Shown piece by piece: positions 4,519-14,817 of a stretch of 64,000 bases of DNA. Numbering within the stretch: position 1 is the first letter of the stretch; every line of letters begins with the position of its first letter. A program made the translations under genes and the position numbers. The notes beneath the pieces are model-generated. The model was not told where the DNA came from. It ran no database searches and worked only from the letters and a program-made list of their open reading frames with translations. The stretch is from positions 1,448,301 through 1,512,300 of the forward strand of contig NZ_MQWC01000004.1 of NCBI RefSeq assembly GCF_002954405.1, given 5' to 3'. Source of the DNA: Salinibacter sp. 10B. GTDB lineage: Bacteria; Bacteroidota; Rhodothermia; Rhodothermales; Salinibacteraceae.

Positions 4519-5166
4519 CTACATCGATTCGTATGTCAGTCGCTGGATTTTTTGGACGAGTTGTCGCTTCTCCGTTTCGAATCCTTCTCGAACCGTCTCC
4601 CCGGCAATCTCAACAACCTGCCCACTTTTTGCCATCCGAGCAAATGAAAGCTGGTCACTAAACGTCTTCAGGGCTGCCTGGTTCGTCGTCAAAGTGGTTC
4701 CCTTGTTGCGGAGGATATTCTTCACCCAGGTCTCAGAGGCATCGACATAGAGCATTTCAATGTCTTCCCCGGTTCCACCAGTGGGGCGATAGATAAACCG
4801 GAAGCTCTCTATACTCTCCTCAAATCCCCTATTCCGGATTTCGAACCTGTAATCAATGAATATGCCGTTGGCGCTTGTTAGCCCAATGCCCGGTCCGTTA
4901 ATGAGTTGATCTCTCAGTTCCGAGATCTCGTACTCCTCCCCATCCGGCTTGCGGCTTACCTTGAGGCTATCGCTTCGTTTCAGAACCTGGGTAAGAGTGT
5001 CCAGGAGAACACGAGGCGGACTGTTGGACTCAAGCTCATTAACAAACAGCTGGGAGGTCTGCAGCCAGCGCTGCGCACTGGCTTCCTGAAACGGGAGGGC
5101 CAACACCATCCCGAAAAACACTATCGATAGCAGAACTCCTTGATTAGTCCTAATCATATTTTCCAC
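4519..5166 (-). CDS. gldN: GldN-like type IX secretion/gliding protein (short)
   Basis: A 215-residue protein with a cleavable signal peptide (hydrophobic segment at residues 12-26, cleavage after 'EASAQ'). The mature part resembles GldN/PorN. It opens by tying a lifestyle of short helices to 'RVLLDTLTQVLKRSD', and ends with 'GETVREGFETEKRQLVQKIQRLTYESM', where charged residues dominate. GldN/PorN is a periplasmic ring component that binds the lipoprotein GldK. The gene is last in the operon, after gldL and gldM, exactly where gldN sits in flavobacteria. It is clearly shorter than typical GldN (around 300 residues). The assignment therefore rests on synteny as much as similarity. Confidence 0.65.
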   Translation of the reverse strand: MENMIRTNQGVLLSIVFFGMVLALPFQEASAQRWLQTSQLFVNELESNSPPRVLLDTLTQVLKRSDSLKVSRKPDGEEYEISELRDQLINGPGIGLTSANGIFIDYRFEIRNRGFEESIESFRFIYRPTGGTGEDIEMLYVDASETWVKNILRNKGTTLTTNQAALKTFSDQLSFARMAKSGQVVEIAGETVREGFETEKRQLVQKIQRLTYESM

Positions 5167-5214: not shown

Positions 5215-6270
5215 CTACGCCAATATGAAGCTATACGAGAGACTAGATTCATTCAGGTTCACCGGAATTGCTTGCCCGGCGTGATTAATCCGTACCACAT
5301 CTTGCAACTGAATGATCACCCGGTCCTTCGATTGAGCTCCAACCTGACTAAGCCCCCTGATCAATTCTGCCTTGAGAGTTGAATTCTGTCCGAGATTAAA
5401 TGTGCCAATCTCCTGACTCGCCTTCAGCCCCTTACGAATAGAGACCTTCGCTCGGCGAACCCGATAGTTCGCATCTTGCGGATAGCTCTTGGCAAACTCG
5501 GGATCGGCCTCAACCTGGAATTGCAATGTGGGACGTGCCCGAGAAATATTATCCCCATTTGCTAACTGTTCTCCCTGGGCATCAAGCACCCTCAACTGGG
5601 GACGGGGAGGGTCAATGACTGCAAACTCTTTCTCCCCCAGATACACATTTTCACCGTTCTCAGAGGGCAGGTACGCCCGAACCGTGACACTGTTCGAGGA
5701 AGGACTCAAGGTGAGCTGACGTCCATCTACACTGGACCCAGATGAGGATTCGAGTTGCAGCGGACGCCCTTCAAGTCCCGGAACGTCAATTCGGATCTGA
5801 TTGCGTGTTCGCCGATAGAGCGACTTCGTGGCAACACTTGTCGCCACAAGTTCCGGCCGACGGACAGTAAAGGACCCGTTTAGAGTCTTGCTTACGTCCC
5901 CCTTGAGCTGACTATACTGCATGGTCACAGAATAGTCAATCTTTTTCTCGTCCTCCCCTTCAGCAAGCAGTTCGGCCGTAGCAACTTGGATATTTTCATT
6001 TCCCTCAACCGTCACCTTCTTATCGTCGGTGCGCAGGGTAATCTCTCCTCCCTTCGCAAGTTGAGAAGCCTTCAGATAGGCGTTGGCCGTGTACTCTTGC
6101 CCAAGGACGACTGTACTCTGTCCCCCCACAAGGATGGGTTCCACCTTTTCTGCAGCAACACTCTGCTCCTTAAGGTCGAACGTGCTGAAGGAGTACAGAA
6201 GAATCGGAAGGTATAGAGCCAGCATCACCCTATACCGAAGCTGTTTTATGTCTCCACCACCTTGTGCCAT
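5215..6270 (-). CDS. gldM: GldM-like type IX secretion motor protein (short)
   Basis: A 351-residue protein with one N-terminal membrane helix (about residues 14-30) preceded by basic residues (K9, R12, R14). A long periplasmic part of predicted beta-rich domains follows. In T9SS, GldM pairs with GldL in the inner membrane as a proton-driven motor and spans the periplasm to the GldK/N ring. Similarity is weak but the layout (single helix, then beta domains) matches. The gene begins 2 bp after the gldL stop codon. Model GldM proteins have roughly 510-520 residues in four periplasmic domains. This one is about 160 shorter, so at least one domain appears to be missing. Confidence 0.7.
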   Translation of the reverse strand: MAQGGGDIKQLRYRVMLALYLPILLYSFSTFDLKEQSVAAEKVEPILVGGQSTVVLGQEYTANAYLKASQLAKGGEITLRTDDKKVTVEGNENIQVATAELLAEGEDEKKIDYSVTMQYSQLKGDVSKTLNGSFTVRRPELVATSVATKSLYRRTRNQIRIDVPGLEGRPLQLESSSGSSVDGRQLTLSPSSNSVTVRAYLPSENGENVYLGEKEFAVIDPPRPQLRVLDAQGEQLANGDNISRARPTLQFQVEADPEFAKSYPQDANYRVRRAKVSIRKGLKASQEIGTFNLGQNSTLKAELIRGLSQVGAQSKDRVIIQLQDVVRINHAGQAIPVNLNESSLSYSFILA

Positions 6271-6272
6271 GA

Positions 6273-6944
6273 CTAGCTAACGGTTTTGTTTGTGTCAGAG
6301 ACTCCGTTCGGGGTAACCTGCGGATCGTTGAACTTCTGAAACCGACGAAGCATCTCGTCAAGATCATTTCGCATTTCCTCCACAGCACTACCCGCATTTT
6401 CCATTTCTGCTCCCAGGGAGTTCATCCCCTGTCCCAGACGCTCCGCATCCTCGGCCAGATCTCCGGTCGCGACCTCGTCCAGTTTCGTTCTCATGTCCTG
6501 GACTGCAACGCGGGCCTGCTTCATCTCTCCGACCATTTCATGGATTTCCCCGCCGAACTGTTTAATCTCCTTGCCCAACGCCCCCATCATTACATTGAGG
6601 TCGTCATTCACCTTCTTCTGGATCATCTCACGAGCGGACGCCCGCACAGGCTTACCGACGTCGGTAGCCCCTTCGGCAGTCGCCGCGGAGGAGGCTTCTC
6701 CAACCGCTCCTTCGCCCTCTTCAGGAACGTCAATCAGGAAGGCCTGCCCCAGTTCAAGAGCCCCCATAATCACAAAGGTGGCTGCCTCCCCGACAAACCC
6801 AAGCTGCATGAACAGCTCCCAGTTGGGGTACTTTAGGATTTTGAAGAAGACCCCCAGGATTGCAAGGGCACCGAAGATGCCGATAAAGAACCCCAGCACC
6901 TTCTTGATTCTCTCTAGCACAGCTTTCTGCTTCGGTGTGGCCAT
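6273..6944 (-). CDS. gldL: GldL type IX secretion motor protein
   Basis: A 223-residue inner-membrane protein with two adjacent hydrophobic helices (about residues 15-35 and 45-65) separated by 'KILKYPNWE', a short periplasmic link typical of GldL. A Glu inside the second helix (E53, in 'GFVGEAATFVIMG') matches the conserved membrane Glu of Flavobacterium GldL, needed for the proton-motive-force motor. The remaining 150 residues form a cytoplasmic, heptad-rich coiled-coil region. The stop codon abuts the gldM start, so the two are translated together. This is the best-conserved member of the locus and anchors the identification of its neighbours. Confidence 0.88.
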   Translation of the reverse strand: MATPKQKAVLERIKKVLGFFIGIFGALAILGVFFKILKYPNWELFMQLGFVGEAATFVIMGALELGQAFLIDVPEEGEGAVGEASSAATAEGATDVGKPVRASAREMIQKKVNDDLNVMMGALGKEIKQFGGEIHEMVGEMKQARVAVQDMRTKLDEVATGDLAEDAERLGQGMNSLGAEMENAGSAVEEMRNDLDEMLRRFQKFNDPQVTPNGVSDTNKTVS

Positions 6945-7017
6945 AGCGTCTTAGAGTAGACTATACGAATTCAATATTGAGCGTGCGGAAGAGCCGAAGT
7001 GGGCGCCGAACTGAGGT

Positions 7018-8823
7018 CTAAAGCCCCCCTCCACTGTTTCCTCCCTGATTTCCGTTTCCTCCCTGCCCGCCGGTCTGAGGTGTGTCTGGGGCCCCCTGCT
7101 GCCCGCCACCGCCCTGAGTCGGCGTAGGCGTCTGAGGAGGTCCCCCCTGGCCTTGTTGTCCAGGCTGCTGGGCATTTCCACCATTCTGGTTTGCTCCCGG
7201 CTGGGGCTGATTCTGTGGAGGCGGCGTAGGCTGAGGCCCTAGGCTCTCTTGCTGTCCCTCAATGGAGCTAATATCCGCAGCACAGCGGAACCCAATTCGT
7301 GAGGAGGCTTCATCCTTCTGCTGAAAATTTCGCACGCCAACCCCAATTTGGAAGGCATTCGACGCCCAGGATCCCCCACGCACCACACGCCGGTCCTCCT
7401 CCGGATCCGTATACACCGGATCGAGGCCCGAGAGGGCGGAGTAACTGGGCGTGTATGCATCTTCAACCCATTCTGCTACGTTTCCTGCCACGTCGTGGAG
7501 CCCCCACTTATTGGGCGGATACGTACCCACAGGAGCAGTGAATGCGTACCCGTCGGCTGCCTGCCCCTGCCGACCAGGATTAAAGTTCGCGAGGTACCGT
7601 CCTTGAGGATCACGTGGAGAGAATCCTGCCCATGGGTATACTCCGCCAACTCGTCCGGCTCGTGCCGCATACTCCCATTCTGCCTCCGTCGGAAGGCGCT
7701 TCCCTTCCCACTTACAGTACTCTTTTGCATCCTTCCACGTCACAGCAACAACGGGATAGTCACTACGCTCGGATCCGTAGAAGTAGGTCTTCCAGTTGGC
7801 TCGGCTCACTGACTCGTCCCAGGCGGTGGAGTCGGGCAATCGCTGCTCCCGCTCCTCCCCAGAGAGATCGCTCACAAAATCCCGGTACTCTTTGTTCGTA
7901 ACCTCAAACCGGTCGATGTAGAACGAACTGACGGTAACCTTCTTCCGTCCGGCGTTTTGGATATCGAGCGGGTCTTCATCTGTCAGCCCCATAATGAAGG
8001 ATCCGTCCGGCAGGCGCACCATCGTTCCATCGTTCGAAAGCGTTGGGGATCCTGTAATCGGGGTCTGTCCGGGATCATCGAACGGGGCAGGTTGACCGCG
8101 CTGCACGATCAAGGGATCAGCCCTCTTCAGCGAGTCAAGAGTATAAGGAATGTCAAACTTCTGAATGGCCATCTGAGACCCGGACACCGGGTCCTCAAAG
8201 GGACTGTCGATCTCATTCTCGGCCGAACGGCCACCGAACTGGCCTTCATTTCCAGCAATCTCTCCAGCCTCTCCCTCTACAGGAGTGGGGGCGGGCCGCC
8301 GGTCGATCTTCTCCGGCTTGTATGTAATCCCGATACTTGGCAAGAAGGCAGACATCACGTTCAGATTGAGCCGCTGTCCATTCACGACCTCATTCACCCC
8401 AAATCGGCCGCTCATTTCGACATTGAGCGCAAGGTTTTTCGCAAACCCGTACTCAAGACCTAACCCCACAGGAATCACGCCACGTTCTCCTGAGCCGTTG
8501 ACAAAATACCCGTACCCGGCGGTGAGGTAGGGATTTACTGGTTCACTGTCCCCCAAGTAATGGATCTGCATCGCCCCCTCTACGGAGTAAATGTTCTGGT
8601 ACGTCCCCCCTAGTCGAAAGCGGAGATGCTCAGACGACTCAAACTGGATACCTCCCTGAATCGCCGGATTCGTTCCAGCAATCGAGCTCTGAATCGACTG
8701 GGAAGCAAGCTGTGCTCCACCACTCACATACAGGCGCTGCGCGAAGGCCTCTACTCCTCCCCAGCCTCCCCAGGCGATGAGAAAGAGAACCGCCAATGCT
8801 TTTGTCCACCTTCCAGCTTTCAT
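7018..8823 (-). CDS. gldK: GldK homologue with an N-terminal outer-membrane beta-barrel-like domain
   Basis: 601 residues in four parts. (1) A signal peptide, cleavage near 'VEAFA-QR'; no lipobox Cys. (2) About residues 30-170, a repeated pattern of alternating hydrophobic and aromatic strands with Gly/Asn turns, like a small outer-membrane barrel. (3) About 265-520, an FGE/SUMF1-like domain: 'VRLPDGSFIMG', 'FYIDRFEVTNKEYRDF', 'GKRLPTEAEWEYAARAG', 'DVAGNVAEWVED', 'RVVRGGSWASNAF'. This is the hallmark of GldK/PorK. (4) An 80-residue Gly/Gln/Pro-rich tail. The FGE catalytic cysteines after GGSW are absent, so it should not be an active sulfatase maturase. Model GldK is a lipoprotein with no barrel. 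The fusion may replace lipid anchoring or a separate barrel partner such as PorP/SprF (inference). Confidence 0.82.
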   Translation of the reverse strand: MKAGRWTKALAVLFLIAWGGWGGVEAFAQRLYVSGGAQLASQSIQSSIAGTNPAIQGGIQFESSEHLRFRLGGTYQNIYSVEGAMQIHYLGDSEPVNPYLTAGYGYFVNGSGERGVIPVGLGLEYGFAKNLALNVEMSGRFGVNEVVNGQRLNLNVMSAFLPSIGITYKPEKIDRRPAPTPVEGEAGEIAGNEGQFGGRSAENEIDSPFEDPVSGSQMAIQKFDIPYTLDSLKRADPLIVQRGQPAPFDDPGQTPITGSPTLSNDGTMVRLPDGSFIMGLTDEDPLDIQNAGRKKVTVSSFYIDRFEVTNKEYRDFVSDLSGEEREQRLPDSTAWDESVSRANWKTYFYGSERSDYPVVAVTWKDAKEYCKWEGKRLPTEAEWEYAARAGRVGGVYPWAGFSPRDPQGRYLANFNPGRQGQAADGYAFTAPVGTYPPNKWGLHDVAGNVAEWVEDAYTPSYSALSGLDPVYTDPEEDRRVVRGGSWASNAFQIGVGVRNFQQKDEASSRIGFRCAADISSIEGQQESLGPQPTPPPQNQPQPGANQNGGNAQQPGQQGQGGPPQTPTPTQGGGGQQGAPDTPQTGGQGGNGNQGGNSGGGL

Positions 8824-8875
8824 CTTAAAAAGAGGAATATTTCTTGGTACGCGACGAACCCCTCACCCTTCAACT

Positions 8876-9616
8876 TTAGTCAATATCAAATCTATAACTA
8901 AAGTTAACAAAGGATACGAAGTCCGGTACTCCGTTTGGATCGAACCCCTTGTACCCATCAATCAGATCAGAAGACGCAATCCGAGTTCCTACCCGAAACT
9001 TATCCAGAATCGTAACCCCAACCTTGAGCGATGCCGAGACTCTCGTGCCGAGCGGGTTGTAATTATTGTCCTCCGTCTCTTCAGGGAAGTTCTGATAGGA
9101 AGGGGAAATGATGAAGTTTGGACCGCCCCCTACGAACACCCTAAACAGCCCGGGTGCGATGTAAGGCAATTCATAGTCCCCATAGAAGTCGAGCGCGAGG
9201 GAATTCGCCTTGAATCCTGATCCTCCCGTTGTCTCTCCCGAAAGCCGATTGTACACCAAATCAGCCCCGACTCCATACTGGTCAAATCGCCCCAGCCTGT
9301 GATCGACTCCCGCCCGAAGGGAAAGCGCCCCACTTCCTGCGAGATACTTAACGAGGTTATGGTTTGGGTTTCGGCTAAAATCCCCCTGATAAACCGCAAG
9401 CCCAACCCCTATCGACACTCCGTGAATGAACGGCTCACTCTGCTGAGCTTGGGGTTGAGACTGCTGCCCTCCAGAACCTCTTTCTCCTCTGTTTTGGGGG
9501 TAACGTCCCTGGGGGGCTTGAGCCAGAACTTGCTGTCCTGCGAAAAGAGAGAGCAAGATTCCTACCAGGACCAGCGACTTCCCTCGAGGCGGCAGAGTGA
9601 TGAGCATAGGTCCCAC
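8876..9616 (-). CDS. Outer-membrane beta-barrel protein, first gene of the T9SS operon
   Basis: 246 residues: a signal peptide (cleavage near 'QQVLAQ'), a Gln/Arg/Gly-rich linker (about residues 35-62), then an eight-strand-like barrel. The barrel ends in 'FVSFVNFSYRFDID', with the aromatic C-terminal strand of outer-membrane proteins. 'GVSIGVGLAVYQGDFSRNPN' near the start of the barrel resembles Bacteroidota outer-membrane beta-barrel domains. The role is unknown. Its place, 52 bp before the gldK fusion and after a likely promoter, suggests a partner of the T9SS core. Translation from the first ATG or from the fourth codon (ATG at 9607) is equally possible. Confidence 0.7.
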   Translation of the reverse strand: MGPMLITLPPRGKSLVLVGILLSLFAGQQVLAQAPQGRYPQNRGERGSGGQQSQPQAQQSEPFIHGVSIGVGLAVYQGDFSRNPNHNLVKYLAGSGALSLRAGVDHRLGRFDQYGVGADLVYNRLSGETTGGSGFKANSLALDFYGDYELPYIAPGLFRVFVGGGPNFIISPSYQNFPEETEDNNYNPLGTRVSASLKVGVTILDKFRVGTRIASSDLIDGYKGFDPNGVPDFVSFVNFSYRFDID

Positions 9617-12534: not shown

Positions 12535-14772
12535 TCACTCCGGCCTCGCCACCCCAGCGGACGCGTCCGCTTCGCTTGTCGTCGTAATCTCGTCCACGAG
12601 GCGCGTGGCCCCATACAGGTTGCGCAGGGCCTCCACAATTCCACGCACGTCGACCGAGATGGCTCGTGCCGACTGCGTCCGATACAGGTACTCGTTCGGC
12701 AGGGCCTCCATGTTGCTGTCAAAAATGACACCGACGACTTCAAGGTCAGCGTTTAGGAGGGGCGATCCCGAGTTTCCTCCCGAGATGTCATTGGTGGAAA
12801 CCATGTTGAGTGGCGTTCCGAGATCGAATGAATCTGGAGGACTCACCCACCGCTCTGGCAGTTGCCAGTCCTCCTGAGCGTGGGAATAGTAGCGATCATA
12901 CATCCCATAGAAATTGGTGAACGGCGGGGCCGTGGACCCATTGTATCGATATCCTTTTACGCGCCCATCCGAAATGCGGAGTGTGAAGGAAGCATCCGGA
13001 GGGACCGTGTCTCCATAGATGGCTCGACGAGCTTTGGACAGCCGTCCGTTCATGTTCTCTTCGGTACTACGAATATCCTCCATCTGCCGGTTCGTATTCA
13101 GAAAAAGAGGCGCGATTGCCTCAATAATGGACACCGACGGATCCTTACTCTTCAAGTAGCCCTCGTCGAGAAGCTTAACGAACGACGTGGAATCCATCAG
13201 GGCACTGTTCTCCACGAGCCGGGCGGCAAGGGAGTCCGGCGTGCCGTCTCGGAGGAGACGCTGAAGGGTCGGGTGATCCGGCCCGAACGCGGTCCGAAGC
13301 TCCTTGAGTTGGGCGGTGAGGATGGATTGCTCGAGCTCGGAAGGCCAGTTTTCAATCCGCAGCGCCTCGTTGCGAATGTCCTCCACGCGGTCCGGACGGG
13401 CCCCTCGGGTGCGCAAAAAATCGTAGTAGTACCCATGTACGGCACGCGTCAGAATTCGAGAGCCGAGCTGAATATTTGCAAACGTGAGGAAGGCCTTCTG
13501 CTTGTCGGCAAGGATCCGCTTCGACTGCTGGAGACGCTTCACTTCTCCCACTACCCGGCTGTACTGCTGGAGCGAATCAACCGTGGCCATCGAGTCGAGT
13601 AGGGCCTGAACGGCGGTCCCTCGCCGCGCCAGCAGGTAGGGATCCTGCAATCCGCGGAGCTGGCCTTCAATGCTCTTGATGGTATTGCCGACCGAGAAGA
13701 ATGTATTTTGCAGTCCGTACTCGGCAGCTGTTTCCGGGTTGTTCGCGATGTAGGACTGAAGCAAATCCCGTCGCTTCTGGAAAACATCGAGACGGTTGGG
13801 CAGGCTATAGTCCCGTTCGTACTCCAGTTGCGATACCATCTTGAGGCGACTGGTAGAGCCCGGATTCCCCACGGCAAAGACCGTCTCCCCGGCCTCCGCC
13901 CCGCCAAGGTCCCACGAAAAGTGGTGCGGAGACTGAAGCGGGGTGCCATCGTCCGCGTAGGCCCGGAGAAAGGCAACGTCGAAGGAATGGCGGGGATACG
14001 TAAAGTTGTCGGCCTCGCCCCCAAAATACCCGGCCCGCAGTTCGGGCGCCATCACGAGCCGAATGTCGTTGTACCGTCGGTACGTGTACGCTGAATACTG
14101 CGCCCCATTGTACAGGGGCACCACCTCCACCCGAAGATGCTCATTTCTTTTCTGCACCTCCTCCGTCATGATATCCTCGAGAACCCCAATGCGCTGCTGT
14201 TCTGTGCTCCCGCGCGTATCGCCCCCCGCCATCGTTCCCTGCTTAATCCGAGCCGTCACATCTTGAATTTCCACCAACTGATCCACGTGCAAGTCCGGCA
14301 CTCGTCGCTCCCCCGCAAGGGAATCCGCCAGGAAGCCTTTTTCCAACAGGCGCTCGTTCCTGCGGCTTACCTTTTCAATCGCGTCGCGCGCGCAATGGTG
14401 GTTCGTCATGATGAGTCCCTGCCCCGACACGAACGACGCCGAGCAGCCGTTGCCAAACCGGAGGGCCGCCTGCCGTGCCGTCGACAACCACTGCGAGTCC
14501 GGCCGCACCCCATAGGCCGATGCGAAATAGTCGACCGGCACCTGATCGAAGGTCCATAGCTTCCCCCGGTCGAACCGCCCCACCTGTACCGTATCATACC
14601 CCGAAGGAATGGAAACGACATTGGACGTCCGATCAACAGCAACCGAAACCGTATCGTTGGAGGCAGGCGGCCGCTCCGCAACCGTCACGGTTTGCCTCGG
14701 CGTGCCGCACCCAGCCACCAAAAGTAGCCCGGCCAGAACGACCCCGGACACCCAAACGAAAAATGATCGCAT
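12535..14772 (-). CDS. S46 family serine peptidase (DPP7/DPP11-like), lipoprotein
   Basis: A dipeptidyl-peptidase of the S46 family (clan PA), which removes dipeptides from the N-terminus of peptides in the periplasm. About 745 residues are read from the ATG at 14772 (MRSFFVWVSG); an ATG at 14787 is also open. The lipobox 'LLLVAGC' indicates lipid attachment. The triad is intact: His in 'IMTNHHCARD' (about residue 126), Asp in 'YPRHSFDVAFLR' (about 265) and Ser in 'GGNSGSPLLN' (about 668). The C-terminal 'RAISVDVRGIVEAL' is diagnostic of S46. A helical cap domain occupies the middle. It lies 45 bp downstream of a paralogue without catalytic residues, probably in one transcript. The P1 preference (acidic or hydrophobic) was not assigned. 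Confidence 0.92.
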   Translation of the reverse strand: MRSFFVWVSGVVLAGLLLVAGCGTPRQTVTVAERPPASNDTVSVAVDRTSNVVSIPSGYDTVQVGRFDRGKLWTFDQVPVDYFASAYGVRPDSQWLSTARQAALRFGNGCSASFVSGQGLIMTNHHCARDAIEKVSRRNERLLEKGFLADSLAGERRVPDLHVDQLVEIQDVTARIKQGTMAGGDTRGSTEQQRIGVLEDIMTEEVQKRNEHLRVEVVPLYNGAQYSAYTYRRYNDIRLVMAPELRAGYFGGEADNFTYPRHSFDVAFLRAYADDGTPLQSPHHFSWDLGGAEAGETVFAVGNPGSTSRLKMVSQLEYERDYSLPNRLDVFQKRRDLLQSYIANNPETAAEYGLQNTFFSVGNTIKSIEGQLRGLQDPYLLARRGTAVQALLDSMATVDSLQQYSRVVGEVKRLQQSKRILADKQKAFLTFANIQLGSRILTRAVHGYYYDFLRTRGARPDRVEDIRNEALRIENWPSELEQSILTAQLKELRTAFGPDHPTLQRLLRDGTPDSLAARLVENSALMDSTSFVKLLDEGYLKSKDPSVSIIEAIAPLFLNTNRQMEDIRSTEENMNGRLSKARRAIYGDTVPPDASFTLRISDGRVKGYRYNGSTAPPFTNFYGMYDRYYSHAQEDWQLPERWVSPPDSFDLGTPLNMVSTNDISGGNSGSPLLNADLEVVGVIFDSNMEALPNEYLYRTQSARAISVDVRGIVEALRNLYGATRLVDEITTTSEADASAGVARPE

Positions 14773-14817
14773 AGCAATGGGAAGCACAAATTCAAAAGGG
14801 TCGTGGTCGCGCAGGCG

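Follow-up and report, generated by a model that had tools for sequence, protein, structure and literature searches.

We describe here a protein in which an outer-membrane barrel-type domain and GldK, a ring subunit of the type IX secretion system (T9SS), are fused in one chain. The protein, which we call K, is encoded in a 64,000-nucleotide stretch of the Salinibacter sp. 10B genome (the window; contig NZ_MQWC01000004.1, positions 1,448,301 to 1,512,300) by one intact frame of 601 residues on the minus strand (window positions 7018-8823). In the Bacteroidota studied so far, GldK is anchored as a lipoprotein and carries the barrel PorG through a disulfide, a bond that a 2025 report presents as the motor's hold on the outer membrane (PMC12635249). 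We consider it probable that K is a T9SS ring or track subunit in which a fused barrel, itself probably of the PorG kind, replaces both the lipid anchor and the PorG disulfide. The first-pass annotation of the window had proposed a barrel-GldK fusion without a lipobox. Beyond it, we find that the PorG-reactive cysteine is also gone, that long N-terminal domains on K genes with GldM nearby are class-wide in our sample (class meaning that of the window's organism, Rhodothermia), and that a PorG-like gene lies directly upstream of K.

K has five parts, all on the minus strand. A putative signal peptide (residues 1-28; 8740-8823), with a predicted cut before QRLYVSGG, is assigned from its sequence and from an A-x-x-Q junction that recurs in homologues. 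It is followed by an eight-stranded outer-membrane barrel-like domain (residues 29-172; 8308-8739), recognized by PF13505, by PDB profile matches, by hhalign comparison with PorG and by amphipathic alternation. A putative periplasmic linker (residues 173-266; 8026-8307), which varies in length between homologues and has no amphipathic signal, leads to the GldK/PorK FGE-like ring domain (residues 267-517; 7273-8025), identified by PF03781, TIGR03525, a PorK profile match and an AlphaFold2 (AF2) model. The translation ends in a Q/G/P-rich tail and the stop codon (residues 518-601; 7018-7272); this tail is the fastest-evolving mature part of K and is short or missing in several relatives. The only cysteines are C370 and C514, so that the first 369 residues are Cys-free and contain no lipobox, in agreement with the first-pass annotation.

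The join between the two domains is conserved. Relatives align with K over nearly its full length at 86, 73 and 59% identity. In the window's family, 15 K proteins were aligned, that of the window among them, and each has an N-terminal domain ahead of its FGE domain; in 12 it is of the kind found in K (N-type) and in three of another (F-type; L036, L037 and L039). Three more genomes, from another family of the order, have N-type fusions in the same order of domains. The ratio of nonsynonymous to synonymous differences (pN/pS) is low on both sides of the join; for the barrel compared with that of G263 it is 0.095/0.733, with synonymous divergence (dS) saturated. A sequencing or assembly error that joined two genes is hardly credible in view of this conservation, and we found no support for a frameshift.

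We assigned the C-terminal part of K by profile, alignment and structural comparison. The FGE-sulfatase domain PF03781 covers residues 267-515 (E 5.1e-63), and the best NCBIfam match is GldK (TIGR03525, E 6.4e-68), at 229.9 bits against a curated cut-off of 350. A family profile of K searched against solved structures found PorK first (E 6.8e-60), followed by FGE (5.5e-51). The AF2 model of the GldK domain (residues 190-525, 26 sequences) reached a predicted template modeling score of 0.70 and a mean predicted local distance difference test (pLDDT) of 66, with residues 190-259 below 50. VIA-align placed PorK first for this model (Z 23.3, root-mean-square deviation 3.4, 246 aligned), in effect a tie with FGE enzymes at no more than 22.2, and the top Foldseek matches by E-value were FGE enzymes, with PorK at rank 26. 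In the alignment of K with human FGE (2aft, in which the catalytic Cys336 is mutated), the catalytic stretch MSHRSYC stands opposite a Cys-free WASNAFQ-type sequence. As far as sequence can establish, K is therefore a GldK/PorK-type FGE-like protein without the FGE catalytic cysteines, and so probably structural, which bears out the role first suggested for it.

K shares with GldK and PorK the FGE-like domain without catalytic cysteines, a PDSTAW-type insertion, the LANFNPG motif and the gene order K-L-M-N (with GldN assigned by position and a weak profile match), and PorK is its nearest solved structure by profile. Unlike them, it lacks a lipobox, carries an N-terminal barrel and linker, has Arg409 in place of the reactive cysteine and scores below the TIGR03525 cut-off. 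It also has no counterpart to about 140 PorK residues that lie between two aligned stretches and are called InsH in PMC12421860. The low TIGR03525 score, and single-sequence searches in which FGE enzymes rank just above PorK, would fit an FGE-like protein with no functional relation to T9SS. We regard that as highly improbable, given the neighboring GldL, GldM and GldN-like genes, the profile match to PorK, and the presence in the same genome of an SprA_N match (E 4.7e-84, in a 2619-residue frame) and of 30 matches to the T9SS C-terminal domain (CTD).

The N-terminal domain is very likely a small outer-membrane barrel, as judged from profiles. PF13505 (OMP_b-brl) matches whole K with an E-value of 0.0074 and residues 29-178 alone with 1.1e-4 (22.9 bits, against a Pfam cut-off of 28.7). 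Fourteen of the 15 homologous N-terminal domains match OMP_b-brl at E <=0.05, and the other families matched, each by one or two of the 15, are mostly outer-membrane or anchor barrels. When a profile of the 15 domains was compared with 177,635 distinct PDB sequences, the top three matches were 6x9z, a designed transmembrane barrel (E 6e-4), 4rlc, OprF (0.009), and 6x1k, a designed barrel (0.064); all three are eight-stranded. Amphipathic alternation in the 150-residue profile exceeded that of shuffled profiles by two measures (0 of 5000 shuffles for the first and 0.04% for the second; z 4.4 and 3.8), and none was seen in the linker or the FGE part of K. The arrangement would resemble that of the OmpA/OprF type, in which a small N-terminal barrel is followed by a linker and a periplasmic domain, and OprF is the second PDB match. 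It would differ in that the periplasmic domain of K is a T9SS ring subunit and not a peptidoglycan-binding OmpA domain.

Several observations weigh against a membrane barrel. The per-sequence E-value for whole K is weak and the score below the Pfam cut-off; GldM is also positive for amphipathic alternation (z 2.9 and 3.1; GldN is negative), so this test alone is no proof and gives weak support; and AF2 run on residues 29-189 as a single sequence without homologues was uninformative (pLDDT 33), leaving the barrel to rest on profiles. The weak E-value and the uninformative model would be compatible with a soluble beta domain in the periplasm, packed against the ring. However, nearly all homologues match OMP_b-brl, the best structural matches are natural or designed outer-membrane barrels and the profile also matches PorG, and we consider a soluble domain very improbable.

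We compared the fused barrel with PorG and other small barrels by hhalign, after removal of signal peptides, as also for the upB and Balneolia-type comparisons with PorG given below. PorG (DUF6089, PF19573) gave a probability of 97.1 (score 73.7), against 94.3 (53.7) for the OMP_b-brl control and 1.2 (18.5) for OMP_b-brl_2. The fused barrel is thus likely nearest to PorG, but not exclusively. As in PorG, the C-terminal end of the barrel would face GldK in the periplasm and the tie to GldK is covalent; in the fusion it is a peptide linker, whereas in PorG it is the disulfide of a Cys-tail. The fused barrel has no cysteine, and what would be its C-tail is the linker to the FGE domain. The first-pass annotation had contrasted K with the separate barrel partners PorP/SprF and PorV of known T9SS. 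These are indeed separate there, but the relevant barrel is PorG; PorP/SprF as the source of the fused barrel was rejected, since no NCBIfam PorP match was obtained to E 1 in the ten proteins scanned.

The gene directly upstream of K encodes a second, separate PorG-like outer-membrane barrel, upB (8876-9616, minus strand; 246 residues), assigned by hhalign and motifs. It matches PorG with a probability of 97.3 (score 79.2; controls 71.9 and 43.4%), and its motifs YQGDF and SDLIDG are counterparts of YxGDL and TDYLDD in PorG. Neither upB nor the fused barrel has a direct PF19573 match in Pfam searches to E 1, and PF19573 has no match in the window's own genome at E 1e-5. upB is Cys-free, both in the window translation and in the trimmed part of 16 of 16 upB proteins, and has no long C-tail. 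Among PF19573 proteins of other genomes, a cysteine lies in the last 20 residues in 19 of 27 (e.g., KPCYCAE and IPCPKN). upB lies directly upstream of K in all 16 loci where it was found, the window and 15 others, all of them N-type, as well as in L286. The complete order upB-K-L-M-N is present in 11 of these 15, and the remaining four (L029, L030, L033 and L045) are cut by contig ends or have GldM split. In L033, a draft genome, GldM extends over two overlapping frames (8434-8748 and 8643-9305), the result of a frameshift or assembly error.

These results raise an alternative in which the fused barrel does no more than anchor K in the membrane in place of the lipid, as in OmpA, and upB plays the PorG role by touching the ring non-covalently. 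Of the two barrels, upB matches PorG better in both score and motif and is constantly placed upstream of K, and disulfide-independent interactions are reported for F. johnsoniae PorG (PMC12635249). On the other side, the best profile for the fused N-type barrel is PorG itself, and no upB- or PorG-like gene was detected in three F-type and six Balneolia-type loci, an absence of little weight because the same search missed the fused F-type barrels and one locus, L162, begins inside K. We consider this alternative rather unlikely. Our preferred reading, a fused barrel of probable PorG kind that takes over both functions, must nonetheless accommodate some contrary points: with upB there are two PorG-like barrels, and the fused one cannot be called PorG outright; its kinship with PorG is shared with generic small barrels; it lacks a direct PF19573 match; and eight of the 27 PF19573 proteins have no cysteine in the last 20 residues, so that the tail cysteine is not universal in PorG-family barrels.

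The reactive cysteine of GldK is also missing from K. In PorK, the disulfide to PorG is formed by Cys356, which sits in a membrane-facing GRGCF loop, and the equivalent residue of F. johnsoniae GldK is Cys343, which binds PorG and SprF (PMC12635249). The profile alignment places Arg409 of K (7597-7599, minus strand) at this position, with GRYLANF facing GCFLGNF. We extended this comparison to 81 K genes with GldM nearby, from loci collected by similarity to K: 58 outside the class (among the matches listed, L046 excepted) and 23 within it. Among the matches listed outside the class, parsing identified the cysteine in 57 of 58, and the motif KGCLLANF shows that the remaining one (L097) has it too; none of the 58 has a long N-terminal domain, the extension being 33-97 residues. 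Within the class, none of the 23 has the cysteine and 21 have an extension of at least 180 residues. The two exceptions without a long N-terminal domain are the second of two tandem copies in L032 and the gene of L162, which is truncated by the contig end. Two points count against tying the loss of the cysteine to the gain of the barrel. First, it is absent from all 13 GldM-unlinked K-like genes of the class as well (including two fused K genes, those of L029 and L030, whose contigs are short), so within the class its loss is not tied to the barrel and may not depend on fusion. Second, the fused cases form one clade and amount to one contrast, not 81 independent ones, and they may reflect a single event.

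A search for barrel-GldK fusions in related bacteria, which the first-pass annotation had called for, thus found long N-terminal domains on GldM-linked K across the class in our sample. Those of the Balneolia type, from other orders of the class, are larger proteins (660-701 residues in total; L160, L165, L167, L168 and L169 are complete) with a different beta-rich N-terminal domain that has barrel-like alternation. Against a barrel of the PorG kind in this group, its N-terminal domains match neither PorG by hhalign nor any PDB entry in a profile search to E 10, and the signal region of L165 contains LSAC, which resembles a lipobox. The PDB profile search with the F-type domain gave an OmpW as its best match (E 0.18), followed by nitrogenases (0.27). 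The gene order is K-L-M in L160, L165 and L167. In L168 (7290-12136) and L169 (8832-13661), we observed GldL and GldM followed by a frame of 309 or 311 residues and then the fused K in last position. In the F-type locus L039, the GldL frame starts inside the K frame (6020-7588 and 5365-6735), an overlap of more than 700 bases that probably reflects an upstream start choice.

We surveyed genomes of the phylum and the class with profiles of K and of its barrel. In the phylum survey, with three candidates scored per listed genome, a K-profile match at E 1e-45 was obtained in 86 of 394 genomes. Outside the class there are 79 such matches; 78 lie in open frames of at most 512 residues, and the remaining one (G120) in a frame of 964. 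Among 195 class genomes, the K profile matches in 21 at E 1e-60 and the barrel profile in 19 at E 1e-4, 11 of them strongly (E up to 5.5e-32) and eight weakly. Ten of the strong barrel matches lie in K frames of 529-637 residues and the last is cut by a contig end just behind a upB gene. The weak ones sit in other frames, and the one inspected (L290) is an OmpA-like protein. A wider scan of genome contigs yielded no GldM-linked fused K among the matches listed, which were mainly canonical GldK and other FGE-domain proteins; it supplied the outgroup and the Balneolales paralogue L046, and the unlinked long frames L096, L120 and L121 were left out. A scan of viral contigs gave no match. Frames of 587 residues in G199 and G257, which match K at about E 1e-30, were rejected as K; they encode a different FGE-type protein, whose N-terminal domains are of other kinds, and no GldM was detected beside them. 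In the window's own genome, the K profile has one match at E 1e-60 (best 7 of 35 candidates scored), and three further FGE-type matches, with 34-38% identity, fall far below it.

A tree of 50 FGE-domain rows with a midpoint root (L168 and L169 shortened by trimming; canonical L056, L080 and L095 untrimmed) separates 35 class rows from 15 canonical rows with support of 100/100. The Balneolia-type fusions form one group (100/99), as do the F-type fusions (100/97), whose sister is the N-type fusion L038 (97/97). The window's family has six barrel-less copies in the tree: five group with four N-type fusions (96/94), and the position of the other, L032, has lower support (94/82). Read most simply, the tree suggests that the fusion is old in the window's family and that the barrel was lost in some copies and exchanged or remodeled in the F-type. 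L046, from a Balneolales contig, groups with barrel-less paralogues of Balneolia-type genomes, and the class accordingly includes Balneolales. Three barrel-less K paralogues (L042:273-1667, L043:5724-6941 and L044:4898-6145) have a lipobox-like signal and are nested among barrel-fused K, which suggests a return to the lipid anchor after loss of the barrel.

In the mechanism we propose, the N-terminal domain of K would be inserted in the outer membrane as an eight-stranded barrel with both ends periplasmic, and the chain would run from it through the periplasmic linker to the FGE-like domain. The latter would assemble with GldN into a ring driven by GldLM. A single peptide chain would then serve as both anchor and barrel tie, so that neither a lipobox nor a reactive cysteine would be needed. 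If the domain is a barrel, the lack of a lipobox implies that it has taken the place of the lipid anchor; that the fusion replaces the PorG disulfide is our best reading. The idea that the fusion changes how the ring is anchored to the outer membrane is to this extent supported, insofar as an analysis of sequences can support it. No second GldK was found in the window's genome, so each subunit of the ring would have its own barrel, and the moving motor would pull these barrels directly through the membrane. A ring of K alone would hold some 30 barrels if its subunit count were that of P. gingivalis, for which PMC12635249 gives 31-35. More tentatively, the ring may be a membrane-embedded corral, in which each GldK tethers its own barrel and a closed belt of barrels is turned through the outer membrane. 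This picture, which we hold as possible, would also have the fusion replacing the PorG-GldK disulfide and the barrel type being exchanged or strongly remodeled at least once (the F-type lies inside the N-type clade) and differing in the Balneolia type.

If the preferred reading is true, a class whose GldM-linked GldK lacks the cysteine but includes a barrel-type domain would provide separate evolutionary evidence that a covalent tie between barrel and ring is important. The fusion predicts a 1:1 stoichiometry of barrel to ring subunit, as opposed to the large GldK excess described in PMC12635249, and nature would here offer a test of the way in which the motor exerts its pull on the outer membrane. 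It also predicts that, in a model organism, fusing PorG to GldK would make the cysteines dispensable. Since GldK would not always be a lipoprotein, annotation based on a lipobox or on the family cut-off would miss this branch of the class. In the open-access literature we found no description of a GldK-barrel fusion or of a T9SS ring from the class, and a report elsewhere is possible; the main text of PMC4793230 contains neither "Rhodotherm" nor "Salinibacter".

Downstream of K, on the minus strand, lie three genes that we assigned to the T9SS motor and ring. GldL, the motor stator (6273-6944), matches GldL_N (E 7.8e-4, 20 bits against a cut-off of 24). GldM (5215-6270), a short form apparently without the D1 region, matches TIGR03517 (E 1.1e-15) below the cut-off. 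A GldN-like protein (4519-5166) is assigned by its position after GldM and a weak hhalign match, and has no Pfam GldN match. We compared the three families by hhalign with canonical genes around GldM from 58 loci among the matches listed. The GldL family matches the canonical genes before GldM with a probability of 98.0 over 50 columns, and the GldM family matches canonical GldM with 99.5. The GldN-like family matches 51 canonical positional counterparts with 15.9 (E 0.0016, 149 columns); its probability with canonical GldL and GldM is 0.2. The window's GldM matches only positions 228-513 of the 524 in TIGR03517, and D2-D4 seem to come straight after its transmembrane helix, with D1 missing; in the other eight of nine matched class genomes, the GldM match never starts before position 225.

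Gliding-type ABC genes also lie beside these T9SS motor genes. Near K to N we observed a GldF-like permease (1154-1879; 219 bits, cut-off 288.5) and a GldA-like ATPase (1960-2919; 379 bits, cut-off 402.6). After the GldF/GldA-like genes, a 529-residue frame across the left end of the window (L170 7805-9394) looks like GldG. Also near the cluster, positions 12535-14787 encode a Dpp7-like dipeptidyl peptidase (219.9 bits, cut-off 1200), in which VAGC may be a lipobox. In eight related genomes, six of the window's genus (G147, G195, G199, G257, G258 and G259) and two of its order (G003 and G030), no GldM (TIGR03517, E 1e-3) and no K at E 1e-60 were detected. SprA_N and CTD proteins are present in all eight, which apparently have a T9SS translocon without the known GldLM motor, unless a divergent motor was missed.

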